Shown in pieces: positions 11,616 to 28,234 of a stretch of DNA of 35,839 nucleotides. Under the pieces are notes generated by a model that had not been told where the DNA came from, searched no databases, and saw only the letters and a program-made list of their open reading frames with translations. Position 1 is the stretch's first letter, and every line of letters begins with the position of its first letter. A program made the translations under genes and the position numbers. Source of the stretch: a virus; IMG/VR virus record IMGVR_UViG_3300026531_000007, positions 1 to 35,839 of that record. One strand, given 5' to 3'.

Positions 11616-13727
11616 TCATACTCGGTCTGCCCGCCGCGTCCCAAAATACGGCGCCGCGGCCCGCGTGCAATTCGGGTGCTCCAGGGGGTGCGCCTCGAAA
11701 TAATCCACGCTCCACACCTGCCCATTCGCCACCTTGCACGCATCGTCATCATCGTCATCGCCGTTGTCCAAAATCTCCACCTTCGTCACCCCGGCCTCGC
11801 GATACCGTTGCACCGCGGCCAGGTTCTGCGCTGTTCCCAACTCCGTGCGCGCAATCGCCCGCGCTCGATTGGTGTATGTTTCCGTCACCACATCTCGAAT
11901 ACCGCGCACCCCCGCCGCCGGATCGCCACGCACCAGCTCGTCCACGCTCCAACCCTGCGTTGCGCCATACTGCAGCACATCCCGCAGCGCCTGCAACGTC
12001 GTTTCGTGAATATCCTTCACCCGCGTTCCTGCCAATGCCAAAATCTTCGCCACCGTTGGGTCTTCCAGGTCAAACGCCACATGCACGCCCAGCGAAACAT
12101 TCCACACTTCCCACGAAAGTTCCAGCACCTGCGCGTAATACTTCTTCAGCAGGTCTTCCAGCGCCCCGCCGTCAGCCGAGCGCAGCAACCCCTCCGCGTC
12201 TTCAGGCGCAATCCCCTTGCGCCCTTTGGGGCTTGCCGCTTCTCGCAGCGCCTTCTCCACCCCCTCACCCAGCGCCCGGAAATACCCCCGCAAACTCGCT
12301 TCCATCTTCGGAAGCAAACCGCGCCGAATCCGCCGCAATGCCGCCGCAGCATCCTGCGCAGCCTTCGTCTCGCGCTCGGCACCCTTCCCCTCTGCCGTCT
12401 CGCCCTGCTGCCGCGCCGCTTCAGCCGCCAGTAGTTCCGGGTCTGCCGTCCGCAGCATCCCTCGCGGCACCCAAATGCTCGCCAGGTTCTCTTTGAAAAC
12501 CTCATCCTCCGGCGTCACCTCATACCCCAACGCCCGCCGGTATTCAGCCCGCGTAATCCCGCCGCGATCGAACGCTCGTCCCAGCCGTTCCTCAATCGCA
12601 TTCTGCGAATCCTGCAGCGCCCGCACCTCGCTCAAATCAAAGCGGATGATCACATCCTCCGCAAACCCAATCTCCCCCGCCAGGCTCTGCCGCATCTCGC
12701 TTGCAAACGAGCGCCACAGCGGCACCAACGTCTGCAATGCTAACGCCCGGTTCGCTTCCTCAAAATTGCTGTACGTGCTGTGCTTCAACCCCACCATCGC
12801 CCCCACCACCGCCGGGTGAATGTGGAACCCCGCACAAATGGCCGCGTCCGGCCCGTCGGACAGCGAGTCATAAGCCAATTCCCGCAGACTGTACCCCAAC
12901 ATCTCTGCCTTCATCCCATACTCCAAAAAAGCCGGCGTCCCACGGTTCGCCCCGCTGTGCGCGTCCTTCCACTGCCTCCGCAGCCGCCGCACCTTCGCGT
13001 CATCCAGCTCCACATCCCCCTCGGCCAATGTCACCACCAGCGGCGGCACCGCATCATTCTTCAAATACGAATACACAAAGTCACGAATCTCATTCGCCAG
13101 TCGCACATCACCTGCCGAAGCCTCCAGCGCCCCCATGCCCCGCTCCGGGTGCAGCGGATCCACCGCCCATTTCCAGTGCACGACCTCGCTTTTCGGAATT
13201 GCCACCCCCACCAGCGTGTCGTGCCGCGCAATGCCCCACGGGTTCGCGTTCTCGTGGCTGCGCAGCACATAATACGCCACCAGACCCTCATCGGTATTCC
13301 GCCCCGCTACCGGCGTCATCTGCCCATCATGCAGCGGCCATAGCGCCATCACTCGCCCCTCGCGGTCACGCTGCTTCCACAAATAGGCGTTTCCGCCCAA
13401 CGCCGCATACGTGACCGCCGTCTGATACAGTTCCGCCTCCCCCATGTCGGGGTTAGGGCGGTTCATCAGCCCCCGCAGCGGGTGGCCTGCAATCTTCACC
13501 GGGCGCGGCATGTTCTCCGGCATCTCCCACGCCCACAGTTCCGGCTCCGGGAACGTCCACTGCAAAATCTGCAGGCACGCAAACACCGTCGCATTGCGCC
13601 GGTAAGCATCCTCTACCGTATCAGTAAAGCCGCCAAAGGGCACCGCCGCCACAAACCGTTGCCACGTGGCTGGCAGCGTCAACCCTTTCTGCTTTCGCCG
13701 CTTGAACATCCGCTCAAAAACACTCAT
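11616..13727 (-). CDS. Portal protein fused to MuF head-morphogenesis domain
   Basis: 703 residues, far longer than a normal HK97 portal (~400). Residues ~1-410 are an HK97-type portal (RNATVFACLQILQ, then HPLRGLMNRPNPDMGEAELYQ, then YSNFEEANRALALQTLVP). After a charged helical linker (~430-560), residues ~585-695 match the Mu gpF-like minor head domain: TNRARAIARTELGTAQNLA, then ILDNGDDDDDDACKVANGQVW and a final HPNCTRAAAPY. Such domains sit inside the capsid and may help pack or eject DNA. Start overlaps the terminase stop (ATGA). No frame break is visible at the join. Confidence 0.9.
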   Translation of the reverse strand: MSVFERMFKRRKQKGLTLPATWQRFVAAVPFGGFTDTVEDAYRRNATVFACLQILQWTFPEPELWAWEMPENMPRPVKIAGHPLRGLMNRPNPDMGEAELYQTAVTYAALGGNAYLWKQRDREGRVMALWPLHDGQMTPVAGRNTDEGLVAYYVLRSHENANPWGIARHDTLVGVAIPKSEVVHWKWAVDPLHPERGMGALEASAGDVRLANEIRDFVYSYLKNDAVPPLVVTLAEGDVELDDAKVRRLRRQWKDAHSGANRGTPAFLEYGMKAEMLGYSLRELAYDSLSDGPDAAICAGFHIHPAVVGAMVGLKHSTYSNFEEANRALALQTLVPLWRSFASEMRQSLAGEIGFAEDVIIRFDLSEVRALQDSQNAIEERLGRAFDRGGITRAEYRRALGYEVTPEDEVFKENLASIWVPRGMLRTADPELLAAEAARQQGETAEGKGAERETKAAQDAAAALRRIRRGLLPKMEASLRGYFRALGEGVEKALREAASPKGRKGIAPEDAEGLLRSADGGALEDLLKKYYAQVLELSWEVWNVSLGVHVAFDLEDPTVAKILALAGTRVKDIHETTLQALRDVLQYGATQGWSVDELVRGDPAAGVRGIRDVVTETYTNRARAIARTELGTAQNLAAVQRYREAGVTKVEILDNGDDDDDDACKVANGQVWSVDYFEAHPLEHPNCTRAAAPYFGTRRADRV

Positions 13728-15262
13728 AGAATCCTGCTCTCACGCCGCACTTTACCCTGTACCAGTTTCGCAAACGCCGAAGCCGCCGCGTCCACCTGGT
13801 CGTCGAACGTCCCGGCGGGGAAGGCCACATGCTCATCTATGAAATCCGCATTCCACGCCCCGCGCACCAAACGCACCACGCCCGCCGCGCACATCGAAGC
13901 CCACGGACCGGCGCGCACTTCCTTGCTCCCTGTCACCGTCTCGAACTGCGCCCGCAATCCGGCTTCCGCGAACCTGCGGTTCGTCATCTGCGCACTGTCC
14001 ACACCCGCGGTGCCCGGATCCTGCTGGTGCCACGTCTCTACCTTCGGGCCCGGCCGCAATGCATCTGTCTTCCCTACCTCTACCATCCACGCATCCCGTT
14101 CGGCTGCCGAAATCCGCCGCCGGGCCACATGCTCCACGTAATACAGCCCGTCCTTCGTCAGCGCCATCAGCACCCCAGAGGTGTAATCCTTCCCGCTCGT
14201 GCGCGTTCGGCCGCCGGCCTTGTCCCAATAGCGCACCCGCCGCACAATCGTCTCCGGTGCGGGCGGCTTCTCCACCACCACAAACCATTCCCGCTTGAAG
14301 AAATGCCCCTCCCGCGCATATGGACGTTGCTGATACAGCGCCGCCCATTCATACGGCCCAATGTTCGCCCGAATGCGCGCCAGATCTTCCTTGCCATACT
14401 TCTCCGGCCATAGCGCATCGCCTTCCTTGCGCCCCAACGGGTCGCGTGTATTCACCCACACGCCATCCCGCAACCCCTTGGCCTGCTCATCGGCGCTTGC
14501 TTCGCCCTCCGCTAACGCAGGCAGGCAAATCACCTCATACCGGTCTGCCGCCGGGTCTTCCGCCATCGCCCGCAGCAACCGCCCAGCCCAGTCGTCGGGG
14601 TGCCAGCGCGTCATCATGCCCACCACCGCACCCCCTTGTTCCAGCCGTGTGTAGGCCGTACTCTGCCACCACGCCCACACGCGGTCACGCGTCGCTGCGC
14701 TTTCCGCCTCATCGCGGTTCTTCAGCAGGTCATCCAGCACCAGTAAATGTGCGCCCTTGCCCGTAATCGCGCCGCCCACGCCTGCCGCCATCATTCCTCC
14801 GCGCCGACCGGCCAGCCCCCACGCCTGCGCCGACCGACTTTCCTCGCTTAACTGCACCGGCGTTTCTACCGCGCTGTGCGTCCCGAACACCGCCTGATAC
14901 CGTTCGCTTCGAATCAAATCCCGCACCGCACGACTGTTCTCCGTTGCCAGGTCAGCCCCATAACTCACTAAAATCACCCGCATATCCGGGTTGCGCCCCA
15001 ACGCCCAGGCCGGGAAAATCTTGCTCGCCAATTGCGTCTTGCCGTGGCGTGGTGGCATAAAGATCAACAGCCGCCCCGTGCCTTCCCGCCCGCCGGTTTC
15101 CACATAGCGCATCACCCGCTCCAGCGCCGCTGCAATCAGGCGATGGTGCGCCGCGGCCCGATACCATGGCAGCGTATACGTCGCAAAATCCATCAGTCGC
15201 CGCCGCGCCAGTTCCCTCGCTGCCACCTCGGCCTGCGCCATCGCCGGGTCAACCCTCGGCAT
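13724..15262 (-). CDS. Terminase large subunit
   Basis: 512 residues from ATG 15262, which has GGAGGG five bases upstream; a longer in-frame reading to 15337 lacks such a site. The ATPase domain has Walker A PPRHGKT (~71-76) and Walker B LLVLDD (~173-178). The C-terminal RNase H-like nuclease has YWDKAGG (~345-351) and FDDQVDA (~486-492). This motor-nuclease packages DNA through the portal. The start overlaps the small terminase gene. Confidence 0.95.
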   Translation of the reverse strand: MPRVDPAMAQAEVAARELARRRLMDFATYTLPWYRAAAHHRLIAAALERVMRYVETGGREGTGRLLIFMPPRHGKTQLASKIFPAWALGRNPDMRVILVSYGADLATENSRAVRDLIRSERYQAVFGTHSAVETPVQLSEESRSAQAWGLAGRRGGMMAAGVGGAITGKGAHLLVLDDLLKNRDEAESAATRDRVWAWWQSTAYTRLEQGGAVVGMMTRWHPDDWAGRLLRAMAEDPAADRYEVICLPALAEGEASADEQAKGLRDGVWVNTRDPLGRKEGDALWPEKYGKEDLARIRANIGPYEWAALYQQRPYAREGHFFKREWFVVVEKPPAPETIVRRVRYWDKAGGRTRTSGKDYTSGVLMALTKDGLYYVEHVARRRISAAERDAWMVEVGKTDALRPGPKVETWHQQDPGTAGVDSAQMTNRRFAEAGLRAQFETVTGSKEVRAGPWASMCAAGVVRLVRGAWNADFIDEHVAFPAGTFDDQVDAAASAFAKLVQGKVRRESRIL

Positions 15263-15899
15263 TATTGCCCTCCAGCCGCCGCCGCGCCGCAGCCATAATC
15301 GCCCGCAATTCCTCTTCGGGCATCGTGCTGATCTCATCCGCGCCCAGCCCGCGACGCTTCAACTCCGCCACCAACTTGTTTACCGGAATGTAATCGCCCG
15401 TCATCTCCAAATACAACTTTCGGTCGGACGCGTGTCGGTAACTCGGATTGCTCGCGCTCGCCTTGAGCGCCGCAATCACATCCGCCCGCGCATCCAGCAG
15501 CGCCTCAGCCTGCAAATCGGCAATCACCTGGTCAATCTCAGGGTACTTCTTCCGCCACTCGGCAATCCGCCGGTCGCTGGCAAGCCCCAGCACCTTGGTC
15601 GCCAGTTCCTCCTGCGTCCGCGGCCAGCGCCCCTTTCGCGGCGTGCTTGCCCAGGCCACATAAGCCGCAATTCGCCACCGCCAGCCAGCCTGAATGAGCC
15701 GATGATACGTCTCCACCCAGTCGCTGTGCAGCAACGCCTCGCTGCCCTCCAGCGCCTTCCGCGCCGCCTCCTCGCGCGCCCGAATCTCGGCGAAACTTGG
15801 CGCTTTGCCACCGCCGCCCTCCTCTGCATCGGCAAACACATCGCCAAAATCGGCAATCTCTGCCATGCTCAACTGCCGGAAACGCCGATACTCATCCAT
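15249..15899 (-). CDS. Terminase small subunit
   Basis: 216 residues. A helix-turn-helix segment lies at ~95-125 (RTQEELATKVLGLASDRRIAEWRKKYPEI), the DNA-recognition layout of phBC6A51-type small terminases. The C-terminal part carries helices for oligomerisation and contact with the large subunit. It overlaps the genes on both sides. The cos or pac site it would recognise was not identified. Confidence 0.85.
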   Translation of the reverse strand: MDEYRRFRQLSMAEIADFGDVFADAEEGGGGKAPSFAEIRAREEAARKALEGSEALLHSDWVETYHRLIQAGWRWRIAAYVAWASTPRKGRWPRTQEELATKVLGLASDRRIAEWRKKYPEIDQVIADLQAEALLDARADVIAALKASASNPSYRHASDRKLYLEMTGDYIPVNKLVAELKRRGLGADEISTMPEEELRAIMAAARRRLEGNNAEG

Positions 15900-16548
15900 C
15901 GCACGGCCTCACTTCAGCCATTGCCAGCCCAAGTCGCAGCGGAATCCACCGCTCCGGTGTCCCGCGCAGACGCAGCCAAATCTGACCATTGCTACCCCAA
16001 AACATTTCTACGCCCTCTACTGCCGTCCCCTGCGGCAGGAACCCCACCTGCTCGCTCTGCGCGTCGGGGCGGGTATACACCTTCACACCAGGGAAACCCG
16101 TCACCCCGCCGCAAAACTTCGGCGTAGGAGCCAGTAGCGCCAGCCACCGCAAAGGGTCTACAGCCCACACACCGTCCACCCAGATCGCACGTAGCCCATC
16201 CGCAAGCGCCCCGTCACGCGTCACGCGCACCTCAAAGTGCAAATACCCGCGCCGTCCCACATGGGCAATCACGCTGCCACCCTTGACTTCCTGCCCAGTC
16301 TCAGGAAACGGCGGTATCACGTGCCGATACACCGACCACCACTTGCCGTGCGTCAACACCACCACGCCACGCTCGGCTTTGACAACTCTCCCATCAGCAA
16401 CGGCAAACACCGCCGCGCCACGGCGGGCATCCAGATCCACACCCGTGTGCAGCCCGCCACTGGCTGCATAACGCCGCCAGTCCACGAAGCCGAAAATCCG
16501 TACCACGTGGCCCGTTGCCTCTACAGGGAAGGGAGCCTCATGCGCCAT
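15892..16548 (-). CDS. M23 (LytM-like) protein with C-terminal SH3-like domain, catalytic His replaced
   Basis: 218 residues from ATG 16548 (GAGGAG ten bases upstream). Residues ~10-115 show the M23 peptidase fold: zinc ligands H34 and D38 in LHTGVDLD, the second-shell H76 in YRH, and H104 in YLHFEV. The usual HxH motif reads Tyr-Leu-His, so the general-base His is missing at residue 102. An SH3-like cell-wall binding region covers ~150-210. It lies in the lysis cluster next to a muramidase. It may be a weakened or inactive peptidase that binds peptidoglycan, or the other His may suffice. Confidence 0.8.
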   Translation of the reverse strand: MAHEAPFPVEATGHVVRIFGFVDWRRYAASGGLHTGVDLDARRGAAVFAVADGRVVKAERGVVVLTHGKWWSVYRHVIPPFPETGQEVKGGSVIAHVGRRGYLHFEVRVTRDGALADGLRAIWVDGVWAVDPLRWLALLAPTPKFCGGVTGFPGVKVYTRPDAQSEQVGFLPQGTAVEGVEMFWGSNGQIWLRLRGTPERWIPLRLGLAMAEVRPCDG

Positions 16549-17368
16549 CGCCCCAGCGCTCCTCGAACATCTTGGCAAAATCTCGGTGTACGCGGTTCCG
16601 GTCCACTTTCCCGCTCACGCCAGGCCAGTACCCAATGCCATACTGCCACAGCGCCCAGGTATCCCACGCCACGGGCATTGCTGGCTGCATCGCAGTGGTG
16701 TAATGCGCCACCCACAGCGGATACTGCCGCGCCCAATCAGCCTCGCCAATGACGCTATTCCACACGTGCGCGCTGGTGTAAATCAGCGGCGCGCTCCCGC
16801 TCTTGTCGGCCAGATAGGCCAGGAAATCACGCACCCCCTTGGCTACGGTTGTGTTGGCCATCCCTTCCGGGAACCATTCAAAATCCAATGCCAGCAACTC
16901 GCCGGGCTGCGCCCCTACCACACGCCAGAAGGTCTTGGCCTGTGGCAGGCCTGGGACGTCCGGCTCATAAAAGTGATAAGCCGCCCGCCGCCAGCCAGCG
17001 AAACGCAGTCGCGCCCACCGCTCTCCAAAGCGGGCGTCCAAAATCCGCGTGCCCTGCGTGGCTTTCAGAATCACCATCCACGGGCGCACCGGCCCAAACC
17101 AAAAAGCATCGCTCAGCCGCCGCTGGTAATATGCCATATCCAGAGCGTCCACCGGCAACCATACCGGCTCATCGTTGCCATGCGCCACCGGCTGGGTGTA
17201 CCCCATATGAATCCACCCCGTTACTGGCGAGGCAATTCGCCCCCACACACCGCTGCGTTCCAGCACGTCAACGATCGCACCGTATGGCAGTGCCCCTGCT
17301 TTGCGACAAAGCACGCTCGAACACTTCCTCACGTTCAACCCTCTCAGCGCTATCACCTTCACCTTCAT
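16538..17368 (-). CDS. Endolysin, GH25 muramidase with N-terminal SH3 domain
   Basis: 276 residues. An SH3-type domain occupies ~1-58 (LNVRKCSSVLCRKAGALPYG). The GH25 barrel follows from ~72 (DALDMAYYQRR), with YHFYE at ~131-135, the catalytic pair D162-x-E164 in LLALDFEWF, and the closing WQYG (~241-244) and VDRNR (~255-259). It cuts the glycan strand of peptidoglycan. No signal peptide is seen, so release would rely on a holin. Confidence 0.92.
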   Translation of the reverse strand: MKVKVIALRGLNVRKCSSVLCRKAGALPYGAIVDVLERSGVWGRIASPVTGWIHMGYTQPVAHGNDEPVWLPVDALDMAYYQRRLSDAFWFGPVRPWMVILKATQGTRILDARFGERWARLRFAGWRRAAYHFYEPDVPGLPQAKTFWRVVGAQPGELLALDFEWFPEGMANTTVAKGVRDFLAYLADKSGSAPLIYTSAHVWNSVIGEADWARQYPLWVAHYTTAMQPAMPVAWDTWALWQYGIGYWPGVSGKVDRNRVHRDFAKMFEERWGDGA

Positions 17369-17685
17369 GCGCCAGCCTCCCTTCCATGCAACGCTTGCAC
17401 CACACGCCCCATTCGTTCCGCCATACGTCCGTCGTGGGCTGCAAGGCTCTCCTGCATCGCCCGCAACTCCTCGGCCATCCGAGCGAGGGCCTCGTTGTTT
17501 GCTTGGCGCTGCTCATCTAAAAACTTGCGCCACACCTCATCGCGCGCCCGTTGTTCCGTATCCCACCGCTGCATCATTTCCATCTGGAACTTGTTCATTT
17601 TGTCCAACACCATCAACATCGCCCAAACGAAGATGCCTACCAGCGGTGCCTGTGTCAGCAGGCTTACCCACACGTCGCCTTGCAT
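17365..17685 (-). CDS. Holin-like small membrane protein with coiled coil
   Basis: 106 residues. One transmembrane segment (~8-29, LLTQAPLVGIFVWAMLMVL) is followed by a charged amphipathic helix or coiled coil to the end. This resembles XhlA/BhlA-type lysis accessory proteins. It directly precedes the endolysin, with an overlap of its stop and the endolysin start. Holin or accessory role is inferred from topology and place. Confidence 0.7.
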   Translation of the reverse strand: MQGDVWVSLLTQAPLVGIFVWAMLMVLDKMNKFQMEMMQRWDTEQRARDEVWRKFLDEQRQANNEALARMAEELRAMQESLAAHDGRMAERMGRVVQALHGREAGA

Positions 17686-17688
17686 GGC

Positions 17689-17997
17689 TTACCCCTTGCT
17701 CGCGGGCGGGGAAATCAGGTAGGTCGTCTGATTTGCAATCACTGCCGCGCCAAAGGCCTTCATCACAGACACAAGGCCACTTCGGTCGCACATCACGGCC
17801 AAATTGAAATCGGCTCCGAAGCCGCTGCACGCCGTAACAAGCACCAGCGCCACAGCCAGAACCAGAAACGCGAGCATCACCAGACGTTTCTGCATCCCAT
17901 CCAGAGCGCCATACCATTGCTTTGCGCCAGGAACATACGAAAACACCAGCGAGAGCAGCACACCTGCCAGCGAAGAAACGAACTCAGCCGTCACCAT
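17689..17997 (-). CDS. Holin candidate, first gene of late operon
   Basis: 102 residues from ATG 17997, just after AGGAGG. Two clear hydrophobic segments (FVSSLAGVLLSLVFSYV near 6-22 and LVMLAFLVLAVALVLVTA near 40-57) and a weaker C-terminal one (LVSVMKAFGAAVIANQTTYL). A longer in-frame reading to 18078 runs through the leader hairpin and is unlikely. Topology and place before the lysis genes suggest the holin. Confidence 0.7.
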   Translation of the reverse strand: MVTAEFVSSLAGVLLSLVFSYVPGAKQWYGALDGMQKRLVMLAFLVLAVALVLVTACSGFGADFNLAVMCDRSGLVSVMKAFGAAVIANQTTYLISPPASKG

Positions 17998-18025
17998 CCA
18001 CCTCCTGTTTGCGTTAACGCCAAAA

Positions 18026-18073
18026 CGCCCGGCAGTCACCCTCTCGGAAAACCCGAAAAGGGACTGCCGGGCG
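18026..18073 (-). terminator. Terminator-like hairpin in the late leader
   Basis: A perfect 12-bp inverted repeat (18026-18037 and 18062-18073; arm CGCCCGGCAGTC) encloses 24 bases. On the minus strand it is followed by TTTT. It lies downstream of the late promoter at 18129-18157 and upstream of the first late gene at 17997, so every late transcript must cross it. This is the geometry of a Q-type antitermination control point. It would also end early transcripts. Confidence 0.75.
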
Positions 18074-18128
18074 CTCATCTCCGGCGTATGGCCCCGCCAT
18101 TTGCTGGGCCTGCTATCTTGTCGCCTTT

Positions 18129-18157
18129 ATTTTAGAACATCCGCGCGAATTTGTCAA
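18129..18157 (-). promoter_or_regulatory. Late promoter
   Basis: On the minus strand TTGACA (18157-18152) and TAAAAT (18134-18129) are spaced by exactly 17 bases. The predicted start near 18122 gives a leader of about 125 bases before the first late gene. The promoter overlaps the stop of the zinc-ribbon gene. It is near consensus, so control probably acts after initiation or by a repressor. Confidence 0.75.
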
Positions 18158-18477
18158 GCGCCACGCGACTGCCTCTCTATCCTCCCTATTACTTCCTCTG
18201 GCACCTCGCGCCCGTGCGCCCTAAAATACACCTCCAGAAATCGCATCAGCGCATCCTGCCCCACCGACCATGACCGCACAGCGCCGCACACCGAGCAGCG
18301 CACGTCCAACGCCGCACCGTCCACTACGGCCACCACATCCACCTCCGCAGGGCGCGCCGCATCAGGATCAATCGCCTCCCGATATAGTGCCAACCGCGTG
18401 ACCCAGCGCCCATCCACCTTCTCGCGTTGGGCCATGCCTAAGATGTGCCCGTTTGGGCATCGCCAACCCTTGTCCAT
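18154..18477 (-). CDS. Zinc-ribbon protein next to late promoter (antiterminator candidate)
   Basis: 107 residues from ATG 18477, four bases after AGGAGG. Possible metal ligands are RCPNGH near residue 8 and RCSVCG near residue 68, the latter a clear CxxC. The C-terminal part is helical. It is the last early gene and ends inside the late promoter. In lambdoid phages this place is held by the Q antiterminator. Its family is not recognised; the Q-like role is inference from position and the leader hairpin. Confidence 0.7.
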   Translation of the reverse strand: MDKGWRCPNGHILGMAQREKVDGRWVTRLALYREAIDPDAARPAEVDVVAVVDGAALDVRCSVCGAVRSWSVGQDALMRFLEVYFRAHGREVPEEVIGRIERQSRGA

Positions 18478-18977
18478 CGCTCCTCCTTGCCGCTTACGGC
18501 CACGAAACCGCGGGGCGCCCATCGCGCCTCGCCCACGAACAAAATCTCGCCCCCAGGCAGTATCACCGCTGCCCGGTCGGCAATCGCCTGCGGCACATGC
18601 CGCACCCATCCATAGATCCCCACATCCCCCGTAAGTTCCTGATACAACCGCGCCGCCGCCAGCGCCGCCGTGCTGATACGCCCTCCCGTCCCAATCCACC
18701 ACAACACCATCAACCGCTCCCAAACCTCATCGGCGGTATTCCGCACCGACCACCGCACCAGCCCACGCATCGGCCATTTCGCCGCCACGTGGTGCATGTG
18801 CGCCTCATCCTTCCATACCCGCACCTGCGCTGCCTCACGCACCCCCTCCGGCGCCCATGCCGCCAGTAGCACCTGCGCATCCAGCGGCGCATGGCTCAAA
18901 ACGTGCCTATGCATCCAGCCGTCCCGTCCCAGTCCCTCCGAAACGGTTTCCCAAGTCATTGTGCTATCCCTTGGCAT
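18438..18977 (-). CDS. Uncharacterised early phage protein
   Basis: 179 residues from ATG 18977 with AAGGAG six bases upstream. It is tryptophan-rich, with no signal peptide; the middle is helical (GLVRWSVRNTADEVWERLMVLWW). Its end overlaps the zinc-ribbon gene by 40 bases. It is the first gene after the putative origin. I do not recognise the family; a role in early-late switching or replication is only a guess from place. Confidence 0.7.
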   Translation of the reverse strand: MPRDSTMTWETVSEGLGRDGWMHRHVLSHAPLDAQVLLAAWAPEGVREAAQVRVWKDEAHMHHVAAKWPMRGLVRWSVRNTADEVWERLMVLWWIGTGGRISTAALAAARLYQELTGDVGIYGWVRHVPQAIADRAAVILPGGEILFVGEARWAPRGFVAVSGKEERWTRVGDAQTGTS

Positions 18978-19006
18978 ACACCACTCCTTCCAAAAGCCCG
19001 CAAACC

Positions 19007-19320
19007 GGTGAACTGGTGAACATCGGTGAACTTGCGGTGAACTTAAAGTTCACCAAGTTCACCAGTTCACCTTGTGCATGGCAAATTTTTGCCGTTAAGC
19101 AACATACAAGTTCACCCATGTTCATTTGGTTCACCTCTTTAGTCCAAAAATGCGACATAATCAAAAAACCCTTTGTAGGTTTGCGTAACTTGGTGAACTG
19201 GTGAACCAGGTGAACTTGTTTTTCGCCCTCCCAAAACAAATTTGTTTTGCACCGTCGTGCAACAAAACAAATTTCTCTCCAGAGTGCCCGAAATAAGTTC
19301 ACCAAGTTCACTTGTTCACC
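19007..19320. other. Putative replication origin: GGTGAAC iteron array
   Basis: Seven copies of GGTGAAC start at 19007, 19015, 19025, 19036, 19192, 19200 and 19209. Seven of the reverse complement GTTCACC start at 19048, 19057, 19065, 19110, 19129, 19297 and 19314, and one GTTCACT starts at 19306. The units form four clusters around an A+T-rich middle. The strongest dyad is GGTGAACTT-A-AAGTTCACC at 19036-19054. No gene with a ribosome site fits here, and the primase-helicase gene ends next to it. The pattern is that of an iteron origin or a multi-site operator. Confidence 0.75.
19233..19274. repeat. A+T-rich palindrome and hairpin within the putative origin
   Basis: AAAACAAATTTGTTTT (19233-19248) is a perfect 16-base palindrome. 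It overlaps a larger imperfect hairpin (19238-19274) whose tip is GCAC-CGTC-GTGC and whose arms repeat AAATTTGTTTT, with a 3-base bulge. Such an A+T-rich, structure-forming segment between two iteron clusters is a candidate duplex-unwinding element. Confidence 0.6.
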
Positions 19321-19339
19321 AACCTTAGTAAACCTATAA

Positions 19340-22174
19340 TCATGCCAGCCCGTATTTGCGCTTGAGCACCTCGATGCGACCTTCGTCCAGAATGACCACA
19401 TACCCTTTATTGGTGCGCTTCACTGGTAGCCGCAGCACATCGCGGGCAATCTTCCCTACCGTCCGCGGGCTAATGCCCGACTTCCGTCGTCGTTTATGTT
19501 CGCCTTCCCCGTCTCCTTCGCCCTCGTCGTCCAACAGGTTCATTTCGTCCATGATATCGTTTGCTATGCTTGCCAGATGTTTGTAGAGGATGTATTGCAC
19601 CTCTCCGAACTCTTCCAGGTTGCCTTTCATCACATAGGCCGCGTAATCCTCTTCCGTGAGCGCCGCCACAATGGCGTCCATCACCCGCGCATCTGTGCCC
19701 AGCGATCGGTCGAAGAGCATCTCTTGATACATTGCCTTGGTAAAGGCTTCCACATCCTTCAGCAGTTGCGGGTCATTGCTCTTGTGCTTTGCAATCCACT
19801 TGATAGGCATCGTCACCTGATTGATGCGCGTGCTCACGTGCATATCCGCCAGTTCCGCGTCCAACTCAATGCGCGGCTGCCAGTGCTCCAGCCGCCACCG
19901 TAGCAGCAGATTGCGGATGGCTTCCGCCTCCTCATAGAATTTCTGCGTTTTCTCGGTCGGAATTCCCGCCCGTGCCAGTTCAATCGGCTCTTTCTCGCTT
20001 AGTTTCAGCGTCAGGCACCGCCCTTCTGTGGCCGGGTCGCTGAACTTGCCGTACATCGTGATAAGTTTCGGCCCATACACATCCGAAACCTTCGCCGCAT
20101 AGCCCCGCGTCCCATCGCCCTTGCTCACCTCTTGCATGTTCCACACCTTCGCCTGGTCGCGCATGGCGCCCACATTCAAAATCACAATGCGCTCGTCGAA
20201 CTTGTCGGCAATGTCCATCTCATCCATGAACGCCGTTCCCCTGTATGTGTGCAAAGCGTACTTCAGGGAAGCAGTAGAAGAAGCGCCGGTGGTCAAAATC
20301 ATGCGGTAGCACACGTGCCCCACCCGCAACATCAATTCACTCTTACCTGTGTTGGTGTCGCCCTGCGCCCGCAAATAGGGCACCGCGCTGAATGCATCAT
20401 AGAGCCAGGTCAGCAGCACATAATACGCCACCAGTTTGTAATAAAGTGGGTTGTCCAACAAGAAATACCGCCGCACGAAAGCCGTCAGAATCGCCACAAG
20501 TTCCCGCGTTTCCTTCAGTTTCCCCAACGCGCTGGGAAAAATCACCGCCCCCGCCTTGATGATGTCGTCATCGCTCACCGGCACATACCGTTTCCCCCCG
20601 ATGTCCACATAATTCGCCACGCCCACTTTGCCTTCAGGGTTTCGGTAAGCCAGCATGGCCCGCTGTGCCTTTCGGTCATAGATATACTCCAGCAACCAGC
20701 CCTTCTCTTTCTCTTGTTCTTGCTCTTCCCCTTCCCCCGCTATCGGGAACCACCCGCCCAATGTCTCCACAATATCCTGCGGCTCGCCGTTCTTCTTTTC
20801 CTCGCTCCCACCATTTGCTTTCTTGTGCGCCCGCAGCAGCGCGTTGAACTCCCGTATCGTATAGCCTAACGCCTCAGCCAAGTCTTGCCGATAAGCCGCC
20901 ACCAAGGTCGGCGGCATTTGTGCAATCACCTCAATGGCCCGCTGTAGTGCTTTATCGCGCCTTGCCCCTGCCTGTCTCCCCGCGTCCGCGGCCACCACCA
21001 GCGCCATCGGCCTGCTCGCATCCAGTACCTCGCGCACCTTTTGCCGCTGCACATCGGGCGCAACCCCCTGCTCGTTGAAAAATTGCAGTAGGTCATTGGC
21101 GTCCTTGCCCTGCTTCCCGCCTTCCAGCGTTACCTCTGGCCACGTCACCACCCGCGTCATCGCGCCCAGCACATCCGCCAGCGGGTAATCACCATTCCGC
21201 CCCTTCAGCGCCCGCATTCCCCCTTCATCCGCATCCATCGCATAATACAGCGTCTCATGTCGCTCCCGCAGCGCATCCAGCGGCTCTGTGAAGTCCTTCC
21301 AGCCTGTGCCCGCCGTCGCCACCGCCGCAATCCCCCACTGCCCCAGGCTGATGGCATCGGCCTGCCCTTCCACGATCACCACCTCATCCGCGTCGTAGCG
21401 GTACGCATGGTTATAGAACGGCTGCCTCGGCCCCGCCAACACCACCGGCAGGTTGAACGCCTTGACCCGTTCATCGTCCCCTAAAATGTTGCGAGCGCTC
21501 AAATACACCACTCGCCCAAAATACCAATGCGGGTAAACCAGCCGCCGCCGTCCCAGCAGCCCCGGAATGAAGCCGTTCTCTATCCAATGGGTCAGTGGCT
21601 TCACGCCGTGGCGCTGGCTCCACGCTGCCACGTCCCCACGAAAACCCAGCACCGCAATCGCCTCCGGCCCCGCCGGGTCAACGCCTTCCCGTTCGAAGGC
21701 TTCCCGCATTGCTTTAGCCGCAGCAGCAGTATCGCGCCCCGTAAAGCCCAGCATCGCTTTCTCTATTGTCGCCTCGTCCCAGCCGCGCCCTTTGGCATAG
21801 GCCAGGGCTTCCTCATCAGATTGGAGCCATGCGTGCATCAACCGCGCCGCCACAGCAAAGGCGTTTTCTCTGCGCCTTGCCGCAGCCATGTGCCGCATTT
21901 GCTCATCCGAATAGCGCAACGTCACGCCAGCCTTCTGTGCCAGATACTCCAATGCCCGCTTGAAATCCCACCCTTTGCGCTTCATTACCCATGTGAACAC
22001 GTCGCCCTGTTCTCCCTCGCTGTTCCAATAATAGGCCTGGTGCTGCGTGTCCACAACAAGGCTATCGTGTTCTGCACAGCGCAAATAGCGCCCGCTTCCC
22101 CGCAAGGGGCAATCCTCGCCAATGATTTCCTCAATGCGCACGCGGCGCTTGACCTCGCTTGCGTAGTCAACCAT
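19340..22174 (-). CDS. Primase-helicase (TOPRIM primase fused to P-loop ATPase)
   Basis: 944 residues from ATG 22174; an in-frame TTG at 22201 is the alternative, and neither has a strong ribosome site. The N-terminus resembles the CHC2 primase zinc region but keeps only C22, C33 and H36; the second Cys pair is replaced (YYWNSEGEQGD). The TOPRIM domain has VEGQADA (~268-274) and DADEGG (~314-319). The C-terminal ATPase has Walker A GDTNTGKSE (~605-613) and Walker B AFMDEMD (~648-654). It would prime and unwind phage DNA. The gene ends beside the iteron array. Confidence 0.88.
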   Translation of the reverse strand: MVDYASEVKRRVRIEEIIGEDCPLRGSGRYLRCAEHDSLVVDTQHQAYYWNSEGEQGDVFTWVMKRKGWDFKRALEYLAQKAGVTLRYSDEQMRHMAAARRRENAFAVAARLMHAWLQSDEEALAYAKGRGWDEATIEKAMLGFTGRDTAAAAKAMREAFEREGVDPAGPEAIAVLGFRGDVAAWSQRHGVKPLTHWIENGFIPGLLGRRRLVYPHWYFGRVVYLSARNILGDDERVKAFNLPVVLAGPRQPFYNHAYRYDADEVVIVEGQADAISLGQWGIAAVATAGTGWKDFTEPLDALRERHETLYYAMDADEGGMRALKGRNGDYPLADVLGAMTRVVTWPEVTLEGGKQGKDANDLLQFFNEQGVAPDVQRQKVREVLDASRPMALVVAADAGRQAGARRDKALQRAIEVIAQMPPTLVAAYRQDLAEALGYTIREFNALLRAHKKANGGSEEKKNGEPQDIVETLGGWFPIAGEGEEQEQEKEKGWLLEYIYDRKAQRAMLAYRNPEGKVGVANYVDIGGKRYVPVSDDDIIKAGAVIFPSALGKLKETRELVAILTAFVRRYFLLDNPLYYKLVAYYVLLTWLYDAFSAVPYLRAQGDTNTGKSELMLRVGHVCYRMILTTGASSTASLKYALHTYRGTAFMDEMDIADKFDERIVILNVGAMRDQAKVWNMQEVSKGDGTRGYAAKVSDVYGPKLITMYGKFSDPATEGRCLTLKLSEKEPIELARAGIPTEKTQKFYEEAEAIRNLLLRWRLEHWQPRIELDAELADMHVSTRINQVTMPIKWIAKHKSNDPQLLKDVEAFTKAMYQEMLFDRSLGTDARVMDAIVAALTEEDYAAYVMKGNLEEFGEVQYILYKHLASIANDIMDEMNLLDDEGEGDGEGEHKRRRKSGISPRTVGKIARDVLRLPVKRTNKGYVVILDEGRIEVLKRKYGLA

Positions 22175-24645: not shown

Positions 24646-24675
24646 TGGCTAAACGACGAAACGACCACGCGACTA
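24646..24675 (-). repeat. TAGTCGnn-type octamer array A
   Basis: Four degenerate units at 8-base spacing lie directly upstream of the ribosome site of the gene starting at 24629. Read on the minus strand they are TAGTCG, TGGTCG, TCGTCG and TAGCCA. The first unit contains the TAG stop of the lipoprotein gene. Similar arrays precede three other early genes. Confidence 0.6.
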
Positions 24676-25113
24676 CCTTTCGCACCCCCCGCTCACTCGC
24701 GGTTTTCCCTGCCAACACAGCGCGCTCCATCCTGCCGCGTGGCGGCCCCACACCGTACCGCCGGCGCGCACCACCTCGGTCACCGTCAGCGCATCGCCCG
24801 CCTGCAGGAAGCCCACCACCGCGCAATCCAGCGCAGGGCAGACCCGCACCCGTAACCCGTGCACCGTCACCGCCGTCCCGAAACCGTTGCCAGTAACGCT
24901 ATCGGCAACGCTTCTCGGCTTGCCAGTAACGACCTTCTCGCCGCCAGTAGTGTTGCCAGTAACATTCGGGCTGTTACTGGCAGTCACGCCCTTCGCACCA
25001 GACGCGCTGCCAGTAACATCCCAGGGCAACCGCGGCAGAGCGCACCCCAGCGAAATCACCGCCAGTAATACCGCCACCAGCAGCACACGCCCATTGCCAG
25101 TAACGCTACGCAT
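24673..25113 (-). CDS. Phage lipoprotein with VTG repeats and SH3-like domain
   Basis: 146 residues from ATG 25113, six bases after GGAGG. A signal peptide ends in the lipobox ISLGC (Cys24), predicting a membrane-anchored extracytoplasmic protein. Residues ~30-75 carry repeated VTGN/VTGS/VTGK units. Residues ~78-146 form an SH3-like domain (LRVRVCPALDCAVVGFLQAGDALTV) with paired cysteines. Possible surface role in exclusion or wall binding. The repeat DNA is unusually conserved (see the repeat entry). Confidence 0.75.
   Translation of the reverse strand: MRSVTGNGRVLLVAVLLAVISLGCALPRLPWDVTGSASGAKGVTASNSPNVTGNTTGGEKVVTGKPRSVADSVTGNGFGTAVTVHGLRVRVCPALDCAVVGFLQAGDALTVTEVVRAGGTVWGRHAAGWSALCWQGKPRVSGGCER
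24889..25104. repeat. GCCAGTAAC repeats inside the lipoprotein gene
   Basis: Exact copies of GCCAGTAAC lie at 24889, 24922, 24955, 25009 and 25096. Variants lie at 24943 (ending AGT) and 25061 (ending AAT), and one inverted exact copy at 24973. On the coding strand they encode the VTG units. Two copies share the longer word TTGCCAGTAACGCTA. One copy sits in the opposite orientation, where it is read as a different peptide, which protein repetition alone would not explain. Confidence 0.65.
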
Positions 25114-25450
25114 CCCTGGCCTCCGCTTGCACATCTACCGGAAGAAAATTACCGTCCACGAACACCACATTCGGCAGCACCACCGCCGGGCACCCGCAGG
25201 CGCTCACCTCCGGCACCACTTGCACCGGAACCCCCAGAGCCTGCAGTACCTTCAAATCCTCCTGGAAGATTTTTAGGGCGTCTTCCAGTGCGAGCCACGA
25301 ACTGCTCGACCCGCCGCGGCCAGACCTCTGCCGCCTTGGCAATGCTTCCTCCGTAGCGGGCTTTGCGCCCTGCATCGCGCCGCCGGAACTGGAAATAGAC
25401 CCTTTCGCGCTTCCAGAAGAACTCAATTCGCTCGCCGTCTTTGATGTCAT
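25106..25450 (-). CDS. Uncharacterised early protein, possible frameshifted gene
   Basis: 114 residues from ATG 25450, six bases after GGAGG. The C-terminal ~70 residues look like a real folded region (ALEDALKIFQEDLKVLQALG, then CGCPAVVLPNVVFVDGNFLPV). The N-terminal part is serine-rich and low in complexity, while an overlapping frame (next entry) reads better there. Either the two frames are two genes or one gene has a +1 frame change near 25.3 kb. Overlaps the lipoprotein start by 8 bases. Confidence 0.5.
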   Translation of the reverse strand: MTSKTASELSSSGSAKGSISSSGGAMQGAKPATEEALPRRQRSGRGGSSSSWLALEDALKIFQEDLKVLQALGVPVQVVPEVSACGCPAVVLPNVVFVDGNFLPVDVQAEARDA

Positions 25451-27310: not shown

Positions 27311-28222
27311 CTACCCGGCCAACTCCACCGCCGCCCGCACCTGCCCATACCGCGCCCGCAAATACCCCTGCGTCGTGCGCACATCACCATGCCGCGCCTG
27401 CTGGCGCACCGCATCCAGCGCCACCGGCATCGCCATCCCGTCCTGCAAAAACGCATCCAGCAAGCGGTAAATGTAAGTGTGCCGCAGGTCGTGGGGGCGC
27501 AGATCCACCCCTGCCGCCTCCCCAATCGCCTTCACCCGCCGCCGAATCTGCGCCGTGCTCAGCCGCCGCCCGCTCCACGTCGTCACCAACGCCTCACCGC
27601 CCGGATGCACCGCCAGCCACGCCCGCAAATCCTCCACCAGCGAATGCGGCAACAGCACTCGCCCTTCCACACCGCCCTTGCCCACCACTCGCAACTCCGC
27701 GGCCTCCAAATCAACATCCCCCACGTCCAGCCCGGCCACCTCGCCAATCCGCAGCCCGGCCCGCGCCATCAACCCAAAAATCACCCGATCCCGCAGCCCC
27801 AGCCAGCGGTGCTTTCCCGTGTGCTTTTTCAAGTGATCCGCAGCAGCAGCCGCGCGCCCCAGCGCTTCGAAAACATCCTCATGGCTGCGCGGCGGCCCTG
27901 CCCGGCGGGCCACCTTCCGAATGCCCTCCGTCGGGTCGCCCGCCAACCGCCCGGCCTCATTAGCCCAGCGCACCAGCGCCCGCAGGCTCGCCAGCCGCCG
28001 GTTGCGGCTGCTCGCCGCGGCCTTCGCCGCCTCCTGCGCCCGCCACCACGACCGCACCGTCGCCGCATCCAGCGCATCGGGCGCAAACCGCCTCCCCTGC
28101 GCCTGCTCAAACCAGCGCGCAAAACCACGCACATCTTGCACATACGCCGCCACCGTCAAAGGCCGCAAACCGCGGCCCTCCAGCCACGCCTTGAAATCAA
28201 CCAGCCAATCACTGCCTTGCAT
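27311..28222 (-). CDS. Tyrosine recombinase (XerC/D-like)
   Basis: 303 residues from ATG 28222, six bases after GGAGG. A SAM-like N-terminal DNA-binding domain spans ~1-100 and the catalytic domain ~115-303, with all active residues: R158 (GLRIGEVAGL), K182 (VGKGG), H244-x-x-R247 (PHDLRH), H278 (ARHGD) and nucleophile Y287 (TQGYL). It lies mid-operon among early genes, not at the att site. It may resolve multimers, act in replication, or be a second integrase. Confidence 0.92.
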   Translation of the reverse strand: MQGSDWLVDFKAWLEGRGLRPLTVAAYVQDVRGFARWFEQAQGRRFAPDALDAATVRSWWRAQEAAKAAASSRNRRLASLRALVRWANEAGRLAGDPTEGIRKVARRAGPPRSHEDVFEALGRAAAAADHLKKHTGKHRWLGLRDRVIFGLMARAGLRIGEVAGLDVGDVDLEAAELRVVGKGGVEGRVLLPHSLVEDLRAWLAVHPGGEALVTTWSGRRLSTAQIRRRVKAIGEAAGVDLRPHDLRHTYIYRLLDAFLQDGMAMPVALDAVRQQARHGDVRTTQGYLRARYGQVRAAVELAG

Positions 28223-28234
28223 CTTCAACCTCCT

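Follow-up and report, generated by a model that had tools for sequence, protein, structure and literature searches.

A putative protein-controlled attenuator with exchangeable RNA hairpins at the start of the late genes in phages of Anaerolineae

To our knowledge, the textbook late-gene switches of phages rely either on activators that bind DNA (P2 Ogr, RinA, ArpU) or on factors that modify the polymerase (Q). In lambda, Q is loaded at a DNA element where polymerase makes a sigma-dependent, promoter-proximal pause, and it remodels the polymerase (PMC7171158). In ANTAR systems (EutV, NasR, AmiR), two tandem stem-loops, the second of which overlaps an intrinsic terminator, form an element that stands before several operons of one system (PMC3369931), and in BglG/SacY/LicT systems a small RAT antiterminator hairpin that partly overlaps the terminator is stabilised by protein (described in PMC3369931). 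The put RNA of phage HK022 needs no phage factor, and its effect reaches over a distance (PMC9378689). We describe here a phage leader that has features in common with each of these systems.

The window, that is the whole stretch of DNA analysed, is the 35,839-bp IMG/VR record IMGVR_UViG_3300026531_000007. It encodes a tyrosine integrase and a CI/Cro-like repressor, so the phage is temperate. On the minus strand, the early part runs from a beta clamp (DnaN) through small ORFs, a large primase and a 179-residue protein to a 107-residue zinc-ribbon protein (Zn107). Then come a promoter and leader and the late part, with a small membrane protein, a 106-residue coiled protein, GH25 and M23 lysins, a TerS-like protein, TerL and, as named from sequence and position, portal, protease and capsid. 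The leader lies exactly at the early/late gene boundary, and all of its parts (promoter, hairpins and U-tract) are on the minus strand, as follows.

18154..18477, minus strand: Zn107, zinc-ribbon protein (C-x3-H and C-x2-C), proposed antiterminator factor from its co-occurrence with the element
18129..18157, minus strand: late promoter TTGACA-17-TAAAAT, matching the consensus at 11/12 positions
18110..18113, minus strand: conserved single-stranded GCAR ahead of H1 (GCAG in the window), from alignments A1 and A3
18090..18110, minus strand: hairpin H1 (GGCCCAGCAAATGGCGGGGCC), from covariation
18066..18085, minus strand: antiterminator hairpin GCCGG-AGATGAGCGC-CCGGC, from covariation, its 3' strand common to the terminator
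18071..18080, minus strand: conserved 10-nt antiterminator loop AG[A/U]UGAGCGC (AGAUGAGCGC), proposed recognition site, from alignments
18026..18073, minus strand: terminator hairpin H2, from covariation
18022..18025, minus strand: terminator U-tract (TTTT), from the T-rich tail in members
18001..18006, minus strand: ribosome binding site AGGAGG of the first late gene, from sequence
17689..17994, minus strand: first late gene, small holin-like membrane protein, GTG start (ATG at 17997 also possible)
13724..17685, minus strand: following late genes, namely the 106-residue coiled protein, GH25 endolysin, M23 lysin, TerS-like protein and TerL, from Pfam and PHROGs

The initial annotation had reported this promoter without its strand, and a small zinc-ribbon gene ending within it. 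Both observations stand: the promoter is the top sigma-70-like site within 16 kb on both strands, where about 3.7 sites of at least 9/12 are expected by chance, and the Zn107 gene stops inside its -35 hexamer. The perfect hairpin followed by TTTT, described there as preceding the first late gene, is equally robust. The inverted repeat CGCCCGGCAGTC...GACTGCCGGGCG (18073-18026) is exact and unique in the record; its fold has z = -5.7 to -7.9 relative to dinucleotide shuffles, none of 200 being equally stable. H2 is a GC-rich hairpin followed by a U-rich tract, the structure of an intrinsic (rho-independent) terminator, which makes it a plausible one, and we expect it to terminate transcription in the host. 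Across 32 copies, T frequencies at positions 7-9 past H2 are 0.78, 1.0 and 0.88, and positions 1-4 are T-rich; in some members the proximal U run is broken or absent and the U-tract starts 4-6 nt after the hairpin, a delay that would weaken termination.

In a 91%-identical contig (IMGVR_UViG_3300005095_000135) the promoter is 100% and the pre-hairpin leader 93% identical, with identity down to 57% at the 3' end of the zinc gene and 76% in the first late gene. Every change within the hairpin preserves pairing of the minus-strand RNA, through G.U or compensatory pairs. A DNA palindrome serving as a protein operator was rejected, since it is only on the minus-strand RNA that these changes preserve G.U pairs. 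At the position of 17997 the 91% contig has no ATG; it keeps the GTG (17994), which is therefore the likely start of the first late gene. The product has no family match in Pfam or PHROGs; its hydrophobicity and position suggest a holin.

Related elements were collected by scanning IMG/VR and about 85,000 genomes for an 18-nt pattern, the segment GGAGWTGAGC plus the start of H2; matches without the hairpin, genomic or viral, were discarded as chance. Of the members, three were in Anaerolineae, one on the Longilinea arvoryzae chromosome and one in each of two MAGs, and a fourth was on a phage contig within a MAG labelled Clostridiales. This last contig (L111; LAKY01000095.1, 41,323 bp, binned as Clostridiales PH28_bin88) has its element and size in common with the IMG/VR phage contig carrying L089, and probably represents a phage that was mis-binned or cross-assigned. 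We then built a covariance model from 17 sequences, which detected more divergent copies, some with wholly different stems, and alignment A3 comprises 34 copies, 21 of which have a promoter of at least 10/12 upstream. The same order recurs in more than 30 copies, in phages and prophages: promoter, sometimes extra hairpins, GCAR, H1, a few nucleotides, AG[A/U]UGAGCGC, H2 and a U-rich tail, followed as a rule by the ribosome binding site of the first late gene. TerL lies 1.4-3.0 kb downstream of the element in 15 loci, and the late genes of distant phages found via Zn107 or TerL (the latter about 48-63% identical) begin with the same leader. Where a phage carrying the element has an assigned host, that host belongs to the Anaerolineae. 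Only 3 of 396 genomes of this class, to which Longilinea belongs, contain the element, so it belongs to the phages, and a host-encoded element was rejected. Searches of Rfam 15 with the leader of the window and of four relatives gave no match at the gathering score or with E values up to 10, comparison of the leader and lysis region with named phages by blastn found none, and we found no paper linking Chloroflexi, prophage and antitermination.

Some genomes carry more than one copy. In G001, G003 and G016 a second, divergent copy lies about 7 kb downstream of the first, before proteins that we call scaffold-like and head-decoration-like by appearance, not family match. Second divergent copies at 6149-6228 of L163, 1314-1395 of L160 and 1173-1254 of L159 have the loop AAGAUGAGCUCU and precede scaffold-like and head genes. 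In L090 two copies are about 500 bp apart. The extra copies look like one signal serving several late operons.

Three helices covary in these leaders. In alignment A3, which was fitted to H2 so that the counts for H2 and H1 lean that way, 98.8% of H2 cells are paired, with double changes in 10 of 11 pairs and a covariation score of 0.708 (at most 0.104 when the partner is slid), and 93.8% of H1 cells are paired, with a score of 0.652 (at most 0.112 when slid; 0/500 shuffles). The third helix is formed by the 5 nt on each side of the conserved segment, and its covariation was not built in, because it is absent from the covariance model. In the members, 106 of 125 pairs are formed; shuffling the 5' strands among them gives 76.7 on average, and none of 20,000 permutations was as good. 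As related sequences inflate permutation tests, the test was also made with one sequence for each of 11 distinct strand classes, giving 47/55 against 29.5 (again 0/20,000). Of the cells of this helix 87.6% are paired, and when the partner is slid the score of 0.448 falls to at most 0.178, so that the signal is lost. The flanks pair as GCCGG/CCGGC in the window, GAUGG/CCAUC in L195, GGAAG/CUUCC in L194, UCAG/CUGA in L193, GACG/CGUC in L192, GCAG/CUGC in L189 and AACCG/CGGUU in L205; pairing is poor in L202 and L183. The 10-nt loop between the flanks is near-invariant in the alignments even where the stems are altered (variants AGAUGAGCGC, AGUUGAGCGC, AGUGAGCGC and AGACGGACUC). Since the pattern scan demanded the core sequence and supplied many of the first 17 members, this conservation is to be judged from the members found through Zn107.

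Because H2 uses the 3' strand of the third helix as its own 5' strand, these helices cannot coexist; two conserved, mutually exclusive hairpins with one strand in common are what an attenuator should have. Minimum-free-energy folds of the growing chain predict that the antiterminator forms first and is displaced once the 3' arm of H2 emerges. Predicted energies are -2 to -11 kcal/mol for the antiterminator and -20 to -44 kcal/mol for the terminator, and in every member folded H2 leads by at least about 13 kcal/mol. Given this lead, the leader should stay off unless the antiterminator is kept in place, and we propose the conserved loop as the natural site for this.

Other readings of the conserved segment did not hold up. 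It resembles a leader-peptide start (GGAG-[A/U]UG), but L200 and L203 have ACG and the ORF that opens at 18078 in the window is closed in the 91% relative. The GAUGAG core recalls a hammerhead, but inspection by eye found no GAAA partner. An antiterminator formed by pairing between H1 and H2 was inconsistent across members and was replaced by the flank-flank helix. Nor does the window contain another copy of the loop, whether as a repeat or acting in trans: on both strands the 11-mer lacks a second exact match, and its near-matches are no more frequent than chance.

Zn107 travels with the element. Among 24 loci found through Zn107 similarity alone, several of them already in the covariance model and 13 not, the element lies downstream in 23. 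In 21 it was located on the same strand by covariance search or prior identification; in L208 it is seen by eye at the right place with a model match below threshold, and in L196 it is 9.7 kb downstream of Zn107. The 24th locus (L209) is truncated, its sequence ending 1.9 kb after Zn107. Of 80 loci picked by terminase, one has Zn107 and the element together and the other 79, about 30 of which hold at least 5 kb upstream, have neither. Virus Rctr41k (KX853513.1), for which we found no paper, was likewise reached through Zn107 alone, and the covariance model then located a divergent element at 15615-15700, with a promoter, the antiterminator GACG-AGAUAAGCGC-CGUC, a terminator and a U6 tail, before a small gene in holin position and with terminase 1.7 kb further on. 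Divergent Zn107 relatives also occur in G003 and G016, on the opposite strand in the latter, so the link is not one of simple adjacency. Part of the divergent gene is repeated at both ends of the G016 contig (L214, L216), which suggests a circular or terminally redundant genome. An exception is Longilinea arvoryzae, with two elements and no Zn107 detected. The link between Zn107 and the element could also come only from a common phage lineage and a position at the early/late boundary.

C7, R33, C61, C64 and W70 of Zn107 are invariant in 25 members, and H11 nearly so. The protein has no convincing family match in Pfam (12 members scanned), PHROGs or NCBIfam. Scans of the 12 members found no Q antiterminator (PF06530, PF03589 and PF06323; Pfam, and also PHROGs), no ANTAR domain (Pfam) and no CAT RNA-binding or PRD domain of the BglG/LicT type (Pfam and NCBIfam). 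The AlphaFold2 model (pLDDT 87.6) gave only weak PC4-like rows in structure comparison (Z about 3), and so no convincing structural match to support RNA binding.

Sequence comparison thus provides the parts of a switch (a promoter, three covarying helices, mutual exclusion, a U-tract, a position before the late genes and co-occurrence with Zn107), and the most economical model for them is protein-controlled attenuation. We put at roughly 60% the probability that the element is a late-gene attenuator opened by the early protein Zn107 binding the antiterminator. RNA polymerase would start at the strong late promoter, and the first 90 or so nucleotides of RNA would hold H1 and the short antiterminator hairpin with its loop AGAUGAGCGC. 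By default, the far more stable H2 would capture the 3' strand of the antiterminator, and transcription would end in the U-tract, short of the lysis genes. Zn107, whose gene usually lies towards the end of the early region, would accumulate and bind the antiterminator loop (probably together with H1), stabilising that hairpin and blocking H2, and the polymerase would then continue into the lysis, packaging and head genes. Both the binding of Zn107 to the leader RNA and the direction of control are what we infer. The initial annotation had proposed a lambda-like antitermination switch with the zinc-ribbon protein as a possible new Q-like factor. We agree that promoter and leader terminator very probably control the late operon by antitermination and that Zn107, given its co-occurrence, is the best candidate factor; the lambda Q mechanism is not supported, as Zn107 matches no Q family, and the covarying helix, its conserved loop and its exclusion of the terminator point to RNA binding and hairpin switching. 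The 179-residue protein, named there for testing alongside Zn107, has no IMG/VR relative beyond the 91% contig and is not implicated.

What stabilises the antiterminator may, instead of Zn107, be a protein of the host, another protein of the phage or a small molecule. The RNA evidence is independent of the protein, the Longilinea prophage has elements without Zn107, and the conserved loop could be a ligand site. We nevertheless consider this unlikely, if well worth keeping in mind: the near-absence of the element from host genes (3 of 396 genomes) argues against a host sensor, and Zn107 accompanies the element in 23 of 24 loci and in Rctr41k, despite a distance of 9.7 kb in L196 or the opposite strand in G016. 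Processive antitermination, in which H1 and the conserved segment load, with Zn107 or alone as put does, a modified polymerase that passes this terminator and later ones, would suit an element that heads an operon of about 17 kb and whose leader RNA has the size and two stem-loops of put, an RNA that touches polymerase directly (PMC9378689). That the stem of the loop covaries and has a strand in common with the terminator is instead a signature of local hairpin switching, and the internal late-gene elements of G001, G003 and G016 would be unneeded if read-through were processive; we regard this mechanism as improbable.

We give very little credence to a lambda-type Q that loads on promoter DNA, with the RNA hairpins acting simply as a terminator. 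The strong promoter, the leader terminator and the leading position of the lysis genes are as in lambda, but H1 and the antiterminator covary as RNA, Zn107 has no Q family match and, on informal inspection, the surroundings of the promoters showed no shared DNA element. Hardest of all to credit is a constitutive 5' leader that regulates nothing and serves mRNA stability, insulation from early transcription or the production of a stable small RNA. The stem is very stable, and a terminated RNA of about 100 nt would resemble lambda 6S RNA; yet such a leader leaves the terminator-excluding, covarying helix and the conserved loop unexplained.

Attenuation opened by Zn107 can be set beside the described systems. 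As at lambda pR', there is a constitutive-looking promoter, a leader terminator, lysis genes in first place and a factor usually encoded upstream, but the Q site is DNA and needs no antiterminator-forming leader RNA, whereas the control site here is an RNA structure. With ANTAR targets the phage element shares two tandem stem-loops, the second overlapping the terminator, and a place ahead of several operons. It differs in that ANTAR RNAs have hexanucleotide loops with A1 and G4 in both hairpins, a signature that the phage element lacks: its second loop is the 10-nt AGAUGAGCGC and its H1 loops vary. It is also used in phage late operons, and Zn107 has no ANTAR domain. In common with BglG/SacY/LicT control there is one small antiterminator hairpin partly overlapping the terminator, but the RNA is different (RAT being compared by its description only), there is an extra upstream hairpin and Zn107 has no matching domain. 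Like put, which antiterminates without a factor through the zinc-binding domain of the polymerase beta' subunit, the element is a phage leader RNA of about 70 nt in which two stem-loops would control termination; unlike put, it has a stem in direct competition with the terminator and a protein that co-occurs with it. By analogy, the element would work like LicT/RAT or ANTAR control; the missing ANTAR loop signature and the absence of both families' protein domains place it outside either family.

If the proposal is right, lysis and assembly would be timed in a different way, by a conserved leader RNA that swaps in an antiterminator helix and a zinc protein that travels with it, the late switch being thrown by RNA hairpin exchange in place of a promoter-loaded factor. 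We lean slightly towards the broader statement that Zn107 founds a new family of phage RNA-binding antiterminators stabilising the AGAUGAGCGC-loop hairpin, across the whole Anaerolineae phage group and at several late operons per genome. The element and Zn107 supply a defined RNA target and a named protein, and with them a lead to the function of an unannotated protein family. The element is also a marker for late operons in phages of the poorly cultured Anaerolineae, and the RNA, being small and modular, could serve as a genetic switch.

Several further features of the window deserve mention. At 15892-17368 two lysins that differ in chemistry, one GH25 and the other an M23 peptidase, follow one another, and both have an SH3-like domain. 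Between the gene for the 179-residue protein and the primase, at 18999-19320, lie about a dozen GGTGAAC / GTTCACC repeats, direct and inverted; the 145-residue ORF spanning them (18964-19401) looks non-coding, and the region is a candidate replication origin (iterons) or operator. The DNA polymerase III beta clamp encoded by the phage (23230-24339) has all three DnaN domains (Pfam), and the adjoining ORF at 24673-25134 (153 residues) contains at least five copies of the motif TGCCAGTAAC at 24878-25103. Finally, a tRNA-Glu (CTC) at 53-126, on the extreme left edge of the record, and the integrase at 27311-28228 may mark an attachment site.
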